37,420 nt of DNA, from NCBI GenBank assembly GCA_015491815.1, contig WFVC01000102.1, positions 1-37,420 of the forward strand, given 5' to 3'. The notes under the pieces are model-generated. The model was not told where the DNA came from, did no database searches, and was given only the letters and a program-made list of their open reading frames with translations. A program made the position numbers and the translations under genes. Of this stretch, positions 34,004 to 37,420 are shown piece by piece; positions within the stretch are counted from its first letter, which is position 1, and each line of letters starts with the position of its first letter. Source of the DNA: Gammaproteobacteria bacterium. GTDB taxonomy: Bacteria > Pseudomonadota > Gammaproteobacteria > UBA6429 > Thiohalophilaceae.

Positions 34004-34041
34004 AAAAAGGCCTTCCCTGTTTTACAGGGAAGGCCTTTTTT
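34004..34041. terminator. Strong, probably bidirectional terminator after hdrB
   Basis: A 17-bp perfect stem (34004-34020 with 34024-34040) has a TTT loop and a T-run on the plus strand; the A-run at its left gives a T-run on the minus strand. It therefore can end both the qmo-hdr transcript and the convergent glycosyltransferase transcript, whose stop is at 34081. Confidence 0.94.
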
Positions 34042-34080: not shown

Positions 34081-35301
34081 CTATGCAGAAATTTTTTGTG
34101 CAGAAAGAAGGGAATTAAAATTTTCATCCATTTTTTCTTTCTGAATAAGTTGTTGGTATAGTTGCATACTTTTGCGGGCGAAAATGGATGCGCTCCAAAG
34201 TTGCACGTAGCGACCGGCCTGTTGACGAAGAATATTCTGTAGGCGGATATCATAAAGTAGTTTAATGACTTTTCCGCCAAAGTCATGAATGTCTTCCTCG
34301 GCAATAATGCAGCCACCTTTGTCACCATCAAGCACATCAATAGTTCCCATTACGGCGGTGGAGACAACCGGCAAACCGCAAGCCAGCGCTTCAAGCAAGA
34401 CCAGCCCCTGAGTTTCTGTGCGTGAGGAAAACACAAAAGCATTGCCGGCACTATAGCAGTCCAGTAATTCCCGTTCGCGTGACATGTAGCCAATAAATAG
34501 TACATTATTGTTTAGACTGGATTTGCGAACATATTTTTGAAGTCTTTTCTCAGCCGGCCCTTCACCGGCAATGAGCAGCAGTACATCGGGTATTTGTTGT
34601 TTGACGAATGCCAGCATATCAATAAGAAAGTGAATGTTTTTTTCCAGCGCAACCCGACCAATAAAAATGAGTAAGGGACGATTGGCCGCTATATTATGGG
34701 TGCGGCGAAAACGTTCAGCATTCCCTCCTTCAAATTCATCGAGTCGCAGGCCGGTCGGGATAATACTAATATCAGTATTTACACCATATTGCCCAAGAAC
34801 ATTTTTCATGGCGCTTGAAGGAACAATGACTGCATCAAGTTGGTTGCACTGACTGACCGAGAAACGTCTGGAAAGACTGCAAAGAATACGTTTTGGAACA
34901 AAAGGGATATAGTGATGAAAGTATTCTTCAAAAAATGTGTGGTAGGTTTCCACACAGGGAACATTAAGTATGCGGGATAAATTGACGCCAAATTTATGTG
35001 CAACAAAGGGCGTCTGTATGTGAATAATATCAATTTTATTATTTTGCAGTAATTTTAATAGTTCTGGAAAACAGCTTGTTCTCATTAGCCGGTCTTCCGG
35101 ATCAAAAAATATATGCCGTGCGGGAAGACGAATAATAGAACTATCTTCATCACATTCAATCGTGGTTTTATCCGTGTAATCAGGGCAAACCAGGGTTACT
35201 TTATTCCCCAGTTTTTGGTGTTCGATGATAAAGGTTCGTATGGAAGTGGATACACCGTTTACTCTTGGAAAGTAAACATCGCTGATCATGAGAATATGCA
35301 A
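34081..35301 (-). CDS. GT4-family glycosyltransferase, diacylglycerol glucosyltransferase-like
   Basis: 406 aa, GT-B fold. The N-terminus (SDVYFPRVNGVSTSIRTF) and the TYHTFFEEYFHHYIP block resemble the 1,2-diacylglycerol 3-glucosyltransferase branch of GT4. The C-terminal donor site has the ExnE motif in RTETQGLVLLEALACGLP. No membrane segments; expected to be a peripheral cytoplasmic enzyme. It follows the PAP2 gene by 13 bp and is probably co-transcribed with it. Diacylglycerol as acceptor is inferred from similarity recalled by eye and from context; mannosyltransferase or other glycan roles remain possible. Confidence 0.8.
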   Translation of the reverse strand: MHILMISDVYFPRVNGVSTSIRTFIIEHQKLGNKVTLVCPDYTDKTTIECDEDSSIIRLPARHIFFDPEDRLMRTSCFPELLKLLQNNKIDIIHIQTPFVAHKFGVNLSRILNVPCVETYHTFFEEYFHHYIPFVPKRILCSLSRRFSVSQCNQLDAVIVPSSAMKNVLGQYGVNTDISIIPTGLRLDEFEGGNAERFRRTHNIAANRPLLIFIGRVALEKNIHFLIDMLAFVKQQIPDVLLLIAGEGPAEKRLQKYVRKSSLNNNVLFIGYMSRERELLDCYSAGNAFVFSSRTETQGLVLLEALACGLPVVSTAVMGTIDVLDGDKGGCIIAEEDIHDFGGKVIKLLYDIRLQNILRQQAGRYVQLWSASIFARKSMQLYQQLIQKEKMDENFNSLLSAQKISA

Positions 35302-35314
35302 AAATAAAACCTCA

Positions 35315-35854
35315 TCAAATAAATGTAAAACTTATAATGGAAATTAAGTAACCGATGGTAGCGCCCGCCAGCACATCGGTGGGGTAATGCAATCCCAATG
35401 CGATGCGTGACAGCGCAATCAGTGAGGCGATGGGAATAAGTAACCAGGCTGTTTGTGGATAATAATGAATACAAATCAGGCTGAAGGAAACGGCGTGTAA
35501 TGTATGGCCGGATGGAAAGCTGTATTTGTCGAGTGGCGCTGTACCCAGCTTAATATCATTTAATACCGAATAGGGGCGGGGACGTTCGGTATAGTGTTTT
35601 ATTAGTTTATAAATGAGCAGGCCGATAATGCCGACCACGGTCATTTGCAATGAAACTGTAATGGCTTCATAGCCAAAAATTAATGGTAGAGTGAGTGTCA
35701 GGGCATACCAAATAATGCCATCCCCCAATCGACTGATGATGCTAAAGAATGAGTTTAGCCAATTTCGGTGACAGACTTTGTTAATCCGCCGACAAAGGCT
35801 GGATTCAAATTCTATCGCGCGCTGCAATAATAGACTGTTGCGAATATTGTTCAT
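35315..35854 (-). CDS. PAP2-family phosphatase (phosphatidate phosphatase-like)
   Basis: 179 aa membrane protein with all three PAP2 motifs: Lys86-x6-Arg93-Pro94, Pro114-Ser-Gly-His117, and Ser149-Arg150-x5-His156-x3-Asp160. Several membrane helices (about 32-60, 68-85, 118-132, 137-150, 160-178). Such enzymes remove phosphate from phosphatidate, undecaprenyl pyrophosphate or related lipids. Between two glycosyltransferases, and behind a PhoB-like box, generation of diacylglycerol for glycolipid synthesis is a reasonable inference; recycling of C55-PP is the main alternative. Confidence 0.87.
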   Translation of the reverse strand: MNNIRNSLLLQRAIEFESSLCRRINKVCHRNWLNSFFSIISRLGDGIIWYALTLTLPLIFGYEAITVSLQMTVVGIIGLLIYKLIKHYTERPRPYSVLNDIKLGTAPLDKYSFPSGHTLHAVSFSLICIHYYPQTAWLLIPIASLIALSRIALGLHYPTDVLAGATIGYLISIISFTFI

Positions 35855-35911
35855 ATGCCACCTCTCAGGTTAAATTATTAACCGAGGGTGTGACATTTAT
35901 GTTTAAATAGG

Positions 35912-35929
35912 GTGAATAATTTATGACAA
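35912..35929 (-). promoter_or_regulatory. PhoB box upstream of the PAP2 gene
   Basis: On the minus strand TTGTCAT-AAAT-TATTCAC matches the E. coli Pho box pattern (CTGTCAT-AAAT-CTGTCAC) at 14 of 18 positions. It ends 58 bp before the PAP2 ATG. A further half-site ATGTCAC (35896-35890) lies exactly 33 bp (three 11-bp units) downstream of the first half-site. CATAAA in between could act as a -10. Confidence 0.6.
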
Positions 35930-35937
35930 AGATAAAA

Positions 35938-37071
35938 TTATTTATAAGCTGACATTAAGATATCTTCAAAGCGGTTGATGTGTTCCGGCCAGTCGATAGT
36001 TTCAGCTCGTTGTCGAGCCTGAACCCGGATAGAGGCATGCTTTGTTTTTTCTTCTAATAATGTAATCGCCGTTTTAATATAGGCTTGCTGATCTCCCAGC
36101 GGTGAGACATAGCCGTTAACTTTGTGTCGAATATGTATGCGCGCGGCGGCATAATCATAGGCGAGCACCACCAGTCCACTGGCCATCGCTTCAAGGGTGA
36201 CATTGCCAAAGGTTTCGGTTTCACTTGGAAATAGAAAAATATCCGCAGAGGCATAATAACGCGCCAGTGATTTTCCACGATGTATGCCACAGAAAATAAT
36301 GTCCGGATTACATCGTTGCAGTTCACTGTATAAAGGCCCATCACCGACAATGACAAACTTTAGTTTATTGTCCTTGTGCAGCATTTCGCGATAGGCGTTA
36401 ATCGCGAGCTGTATGTTTTTTTCATGCGCCAGTCGACCGACATAAAGCAATACCGAGTCGGTTTCATTCGCTCCCCAGTCCCGCCTTATTTTATGGCAAC
36501 GTTTATCAGGGTTAAACAGTTCACAATCTACTCCACGACTAAATATATTGACGGCATGAATGCCGATTTGTTTGAGTTCTTTGGCTAATGTTGAATTAGG
36601 GGCGAGGGTCAGCGCAGTGCGATTGTGAAATTTTCGCAGATAATTAATGGTAAGGGACTTAAATAAACCCAGTCGATAGTGAGTGGTGTAGGAGTGAAAA
36701 TTAGTGTGAAAGCCGCTTATGACCGGGATCTTGAGTTTTTCAGCAGCCGCGACCGTGCGATGACCCAATGGCCCTTCTGTTGCGACATAAACAACATCCG
36801 GACGATCGCTGTTCCAGTCTTTTATCAGTTGACGTTTAGAAATAAAGCCCATACGCAAGCCCGGATAACCGGGTATTCCCATACTCGGAACCAGTTGAAC
36901 TTCCGGGCTGTTACAACATCCGGGGCGATCATATTTATTTTGTCGGGGACGAATGAGACTTACGCGGTGATTTTTGTTAAGCAAGCCTGTTACCAGACGC
37001 GCCAGCGTCATGGCTACTCCATTCACCTCTGGCGCATAGGTTTCAGTCACCACACAGATATGCAATATCAT
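35938..37071 (-). CDS. GT4-family glycosyltransferase (first gene of Pho-box operon)
   Basis: 377 aa, GT-B fold. It begins VVTETYAPEVNGVAMTLAR, a typical GT4 N-terminus, with GFHTNFHSY in the acceptor half and a donor-site ExnE motif in SETETFGNVTLEAMASG. Related GT4 enzymes transfer mannose or glucose to lipid or lipid-linked acceptors; the sugar is not decidable here. ATG 37071 is chosen since GAGG sits four bases upstream and the family N-terminus begins there; an in-frame extension to 37269 would cross the regulatory box. It is followed after 83 bp by the PAP2 gene. Confidence 0.82.
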   Translation of the reverse strand: MILHICVVTETYAPEVNGVAMTLARLVTGLLNKNHRVSLIRPRQNKYDRPGCCNSPEVQLVPSMGIPGYPGLRMGFISKRQLIKDWNSDRPDVVYVATEGPLGHRTVAAAEKLKIPVISGFHTNFHSYTTHYRLGLFKSLTINYLRKFHNRTALTLAPNSTLAKELKQIGIHAVNIFSRGVDCELFNPDKRCHKIRRDWGANETDSVLLYVGRLAHEKNIQLAINAYREMLHKDNKLKFVIVGDGPLYSELQRCNPDIIFCGIHRGKSLARYYASADIFLFPSETETFGNVTLEAMASGLVVLAYDYAAARIHIRHKVNGYVSPLGDQQAYIKTAITLLEEKTKHASIRVQARQRAETIDWPEHINRFEDILMSAYK

Positions 37072-37420
37072 TTCCTCGCTATGAATGATTTCGAATGGTG
37101 AAGGCCCAAGGTTAAAGAAACGTGACGTCTGGGTGACAGTCTGATGACAGATGCTTGAACAATTCGAATTTCGCTGGGTAATGTGCAATATGAATCTGAA
37201 TAGAGCTGGATGATGTCCGGCGTTGTTCTTTAACAAAGGGGCTGGCGTTTTAGCCTGTTGGATTGTCAAAAAGGTGAGGCAAGATGGCGGATAAGTCTGG
37301 ATAACTATTGAGCAAGATGATACGCAACTACTATTACTAAGGTCATATGGCTAAAGTTTAAACATTAATTATAATGTTTTAAACTTAGAATAAGTCTGGA
37401 ATAACAACGCTTTAATTACC
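37072..37420. other. Right-end region upstream of the glycosyltransferase operon
   Basis: 349 bp to the window edge. It holds the tandem PhoB box at 37122-37150. Beyond about 37290 it becomes AT-rich, and no gene could be supported on either strand. Confidence 0.5.
37122..37150 (-). promoter_or_regulatory. Tandem PhoB box upstream of the first glycosyltransferase
   Basis: On the minus strand CTGTCAT-CAGA-CTGTCAC (37150-37133) matches the E. coli Pho box pattern at 16 of 18 positions. A third repeat, ACGTCAC (37128-37122), follows in the same 11-bp register. The core box ends 62 bp before the ATG. No excellent -10 is seen; TTTAAC about 17 bp downstream of the core is a candidate. Confidence 0.74.

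Follow-up and report, generated by a model that had tools for sequence, protein, structure and literature searches.

The operon on the minus strand near the end of this stretch of DNA encodes a GT4 glycosyltransferase (GTB), a PAP2 lipid phosphatase and a second GT4 glycosyltransferase (GTA), in that order. It raises the question of whether a sulfur bacterium remodels its membrane lipids when phosphate is scarce and, if so, which enzyme supplies the diacylglycerol. Lipid remodelling by PlcP and Agt is known in Pseudomonas aeruginosa (PA3219/PA3218/PA0842; PMC8528852), in marine bacteria (PMC4796936) and in Methylosinus trichosporium OB3b (PMC9239053). The original prediction placed the operon in this context, with the PAP2 enzyme in the place of PlcP. 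From the sequence evidence we conclude with good confidence that GTB, PAP2 and GTA make up a PhoB-controlled membrane-lipid remodelling operon, which very probably lets the bacterium swap phosphorus-containing membrane lipids for sugar lipids. The operon is a variant of the PlcP–Agt system that includes a PAP2 of its own and a pair of dissimilar GT4 enzymes, and PAP2 is more likely a second source of diacylglycerol alongside PlcP. Pathways of this kind are already known; what is new here is that the PAP2 protein has the charge pattern of a cytosol-facing enzyme.

The window, i.e. the whole stretch of 37,420 nucleotides that was analysed, makes up the entire contig C102, so that the far upstream region of the operon is cut off. 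The draft genome comprises 2.62 Mb in 206 contigs and is ~93% complete. The positions of the genes and boxes in the original prediction are borne out by the sequence (Table 1). The intergenic gaps measure 83 bp 5' of PAP2 and 13–25 bp 5' of GTA, for which there are two candidate start codons, TTG at 35301 and ATG at 35289. An inverted repeat bordered by runs of A and T lies between the operon and its convergent neighbour and is a probable bidirectional terminator. Sigma-70 promoter scans gave matches no better than chance level.

Table 1 Features of the lipid-remodelling operon and the associated plcP locus. Positions refer to the window unless another contig is named.
Feature	Position	Strand	Basis and remarks
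Pho box array 5' of GTB	37122–37161	−	Core box 1 at 37133–37150 plus half-site pairs; kept in three congeners; shuffles
GTB, GT4 glycosyltransferase, 377 aa	35938–37071	−	Pfam GT4 domains
Pho box 5' of PAP2	35890–35929	−	Core box 2 at 35912–35929 plus half-site at 35890–35896; kept in three congeners; shuffles
PAP2 lipid phosphatase, 179 aa	35315–35854	−	Pfam PF01569
GTA, GT4 glycosyltransferase, 402–406 aa	34081–35301 or 34081–35289	−	NCBIfam profile ranking and orthologues
Inverted repeat, probable bidirectional terminator	34005–34041		Read from sequence
PlcP homologue	G000:C28:2344–3219		Homology; divergent from OlsF-like gene; other contig than operon

Control by PhoB is the firmest part of the whole reading. 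Box 1, CTGTCATCAGACTGTCAC, lies 61 bp ahead of the GTB start (37071) and box 2, TTGTCATAAATTATTCAC, lies 57 bp ahead of PAP2. The scores originally given for the two boxes, 16/18 (with W allowed at A/T positions) and 14/18, stand. Box 1 has no mismatches to YTGTCAYN4YTGTCAY and is flanked by overlapping half-site pairs 11 bp to either side (37122–37139 and 37144–37161), in an 11-bp register. Box 2 has two mismatches and an additional in-register half-site, ATGTCAC, at +33. With up to three mismatches allowed, the 18-mer occurs once in the window, compared to 0.03 occurrences expected by chance. Pattern scans of the 2.6-Mb genome with YTGTCAYN4YTGTCAY found four perfect sites, namely box 1 and the sites upstream of ppk, pstS and pstC, together with two one-mismatch sites upstream of phoB. 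Box 1 thus ranks with the pst and phoB boxes of this genome. Box 2, taken by itself, does not stand out in the genome, with 177 sites at up to two mismatches compared to 136 for the reversed control. The boxes of both promoters are nevertheless conserved in related genomes: they are kept in three congeners, where the PAP2 box lies 57–61 bp before PAP2 with one mismatch. When the GTB, PAP2 and PlcP promoters were shuffled, the pattern found in all four genomes was obtained in 0 of 3000 shuffles. Across 80 GTDB loci, boxes with at most one mismatch precede 16 of 97 system genes compared to 11 of 226 other genes (p = 0.0009), and with at most two mismatches the counts are 26/97 and 18/226 (p = 1.5e-5), an enrichment upstream of system genes with odds of about 4. 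The genome-wide rank of box 1 and the phylogenetic footprints thus lend good support, at the level of sequence, to the proposed PhoB control. Three overlapping Pho-like half-site pairs in an 11-bp register also occur at G000:C99:5604–5643 (L251 1105–1144), where the tandem overlaps the start of a small-protein ORF and no lipid gene is present.

The surroundings of the genes differ between groups of relatives. Sister genera (G013, G014, G017, G010) have a single operon GTB–plcP–PAP2–GTA, whereas plcP is missing from the operon in the bacterium's own genus; in other sister genera (G019, G008, G021, G023, G034) plcP–agt is convergent with PAP2–GTA. The 270-aa protein read here as PlcP is, in keeping with the description of that enzyme, a calcineurin-like phosphoesterase remote from LpxH. 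When GTDB was scanned with the GTA profile, at least 579 relatives came up, and cultured ones that carry GTA include Thiocapsa, Allochromatium and Sulfuriferula. The neighbourhood survey covers the best 80 of these loci, which were selected for their similarity to GTA and so do not represent a random sample. Nearly all of the 80 come from Gamma- and Betaproteobacteria, and in 39 at least one of PlcP, PAP2, GTB and Agt lies no further than about 5 kb away (PlcP in 26, PAP2 in 21, GTB in 16 and Agt in 5). OlsB is another recurrent neighbour of GTA among the 80. In Chromatiaceae-type loci (e.g. L186, L204, L218) GTA stands head-to-head with divergent PstS/PstA genes. The plcP, agt, ols and pst neighbours and the ranking of the glycosyltransferase profiles support the proposed glycolipid-remodelling role well. 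Pho-controlled lipid remodelling would thereby extend to uncultured sulfur-oxidising Gammaproteobacteria and, with GTA head-to-head with pst genes, to purple sulfur bacteria. Features shared with the PlcP–Agt system are the Pho-box promoters, GT4 enzymes with glycolipid-synthase-like profiles, a PlcP homologue in the genome, the adjoining plcP in sister genera and ornithine-lipid genes nearby. The present system differs in that plcP lies outside the operon and a PAP2 is built in, and in having two unlike GT4 enzymes, the first of which, GTB, probably stands in for Agt.

The PAP2 protein belongs to the PAP2 superfamily by motif and by fold. The KX6RP–PSGH–SRX5HX3D motif is complete (K86-x6-RP, PSGH at 114–117 and SR-x5-H-x3-D at 149–160), its residues are kept in the family alignment, and five TM helices are predicted. 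The nearest solved fold to the AlphaFold2 model (pLDDT 92) is that of LpxE (6EBU, TM 0.76/0.82), and the model also matches PgpB. In fold, catalytic motif and length the protein resembles Aquifex aeolicus LpxE and other five-TM PAP2 phosphatases, but unlike LpxE it has diacylglycerol-type glycosyltransferases as its genomic context and an inverted distribution of charges, with K/R-rich N-terminus and catalytic side and almost no such residues opposite. The N-terminal segment has a mean of 7 K/R. The helix 1–2 loop, the helix 3–4 loop and the C-terminus lie on the other face from the active site, and their summed K/R count is 0–1 in 22 of 22 PAP2 homologues, compared to 5–10 at the equivalent places in 19 control PAP2 enzymes (15 paralogues from related genomes, E. 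coli YbjG, PgpB and LpxT, and A. aeolicus LpxE). According to the positive-inside rule, the K/R-rich side of a membrane protein faces the cytosol. The charge pattern together with this rule predicts that the PAP2 active site faces the cytosol, an orientation that would be unusual for the PAP2 family.

Charge counts and the structural model give the cytosolic topology about even odds, and the same about even odds apply to phosphatidate as the substrate, which is suggested by the context. Equally balanced, in our judgement, is the fuller reading that these proteins form a widespread and so far undescribed PAP2 subfamily, which would face the cytosol, convert phosphatidate to diacylglycerol in the inner leaflet and hand it to the co-encoded glycosyltransferases, opening a de novo sugar-lipid pathway alongside salvage by PlcP. 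Promiscuity is common among PAP2 enzymes. Because the genome also encodes PgpA, BacA and a second PAP2 at other loci, the operon PAP2 would be dispensable for the PgpA/BacA housekeeping steps. The strongest competing explanation is that PAP2 faces the periplasm and acts on undecaprenyl diphosphate or lipid A 1-phosphate, saving or recycling phosphate with no direct feed to the glycosyltransferases. Such an enzyme would agree with the description of PAP2 members as all periplasm-facing (PMC6748449), with LpxE as nearest solved fold and profile match, and with the top NCBIfam match, an undecaprenyl-diphosphatase (71 bits, under the cut-off). We nevertheless regard it as unlikely, as the charge distribution is opposite to that of LpxE, YbjG, PgpB, LpxT and the 15 paralogues and the gene is tightly linked in operons to diacylglycerol-type glycosyltransferases and PlcP. 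The model makes a sharp prediction, namely a cytosol-facing PAP2. In a search of open-licence papers, none was found that describes a cytosol-facing PAP2, and none that joins PAP2, PlcP and Pho control.

PAP2 as a substitute for PlcP, the key novelty claimed in the original prediction, does not hold, because a PlcP homologue is encoded elsewhere in the genome. All four members of the genus have this homologue at the other locus, with a conserved Pho-like box of its own, and plcP and PAP2 lie side by side in the sister operons. The protein is 48–49% identical to the operon-type PlcP in this genome and the three congeners, and it keeps the Metallophos domains. In a tree it stands apart from LpxH; it also falls outside the PlcPs of the sister-genus operons and groups with those encoded in other remodelling clusters (support 0.989 with L192). 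The Pho-like box lies 32 bp before plcP, has two mismatches and is kept in the genus. By homology, the genome encodes a putative PlcP-type phosphoesterase with a Pho-like box, as the PlcP–Agt pathway calls for. A PlcP-free remodelling route with PAP2 as the only source of diacylglycerol is accordingly very improbable, even though plcP is absent from the operon of this genus and present in that of the sister genera, and even though Sebastian et al. (PMC4796936) suggested that cyanobacteria, in which PlcP is absent, make diacylglycerol via phosphatidate phosphatases. In the simplest history, plcP would have moved out of the operon, or another copy would have taken its place.

The plcP-like gene and an OlsF-like gene form a divergent pair (C28 2344–5246; L143/L252) with Pho-like boxes in the gap, and the same arrangement is present in the three congeners. 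The second of these boxes, towards olsF, has two mismatches. The OlsF-like protein (620 aa) resembles the bifunctional ornithine lipid synthase OlsF (NF052615), with a nearly full-length match and E about 1e-130, but differs from the members of that family in scoring 434 bits compared to a cut-off of 620, and its gene sits on another contig than the operon.

In the mechanism that we propose, phosphate starvation would cause PhoB to bind both box arrays and turn on GTB, PAP2 and GTA. Diacylglycerol would come from existing phospholipids, cleaved by the PlcP encoded elsewhere, and from phosphatidate, dephosphorylated by PAP2. A PAP2 active site on the cytosolic face would release diacylglycerol into the leaflet in which UDP-sugar glycosyltransferases work, at the place where UDP-sugar-dependent GT4 enzymes need it. 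GTB would then add the first sugar to diacylglycerol, which is the job of Agt in other bacteria, and GTA would add a second sugar or make a second glycolipid. The PlcP/OlsF locus, with its similar boxes, would contribute ornithine lipids.

The roles of the two glycosyltransferases are suggested by profile ranking and by their distribution. The top NCBIfam profile for GTB is N-acetylglucosaminyl phosphatidylglycerol synthase (150 bits, cut-off 480), which also ranks first for the Agt-like proteins adjoining plcP. For GTA the top-ranked curated family is the Acholeplasma-type alpha-monoglucosyldiacylglycerol synthase (NF049988), which matches over nearly the full length; unlike the members of that family GTA reaches 134.5 bits compared to a cut-off of 400. 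The scores of GTA, GTB and the Agt-like proteins are all far under the curated cut-offs and give a ranking, not family membership, and hence they do not allow sugar donor, acceptor or transfer order to be assigned. Orthologues of GTB occur at 75% in the genus and 47–58% in the family, and those of GTA at 43–78% in 21 of 57 related genomes. An Agt orthologue of the plcP-linked type, found at 53–71% in other relatives, is absent from this genome, where GTB, at 36% to Agt, is the sole candidate. GTB and an Agt-like glycosyltransferase occur together in none of the 21 genomes that have either one, which argues that GTB does the job of Agt. GTB thus probably takes the role of the first diacylglycerol glycosyltransferase, GTA may be a second sugar transferase or an alternative diacylglycerol glycosyltransferase, and glycosylation of diacylglycerol by the two enzymes is likely. 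That they instead build O-antigen or exopolysaccharide, the Pho boxes being incidental or those of a phosphate-regulated surface polysaccharide, is hardly credible despite the great breadth of the GT4 family and the scores below cut-off, as glycolipid-synthase families rank first for both GTA and GTB but for none of eight control GT4s from the same genome group (where polysaccharide or other families come first), the operon has no accompanying polysaccharide genes, and the genes found nearby in relatives are plcP, agt, olsB and pst. Profiles clearly indicating O-antigen or exopolysaccharide synthesis, which the original prediction named as a refutation, were not obtained for the two enzymes. 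Two candidate glycosyltransferases and one phosphatase can thereby be named as additional parts of the pathway. Just upstream of GTA, several genomes have a gene that by eye is diacylglycerol-kinase-like and has no NCBIfam hit (e.g. in L182, upstream of 647).
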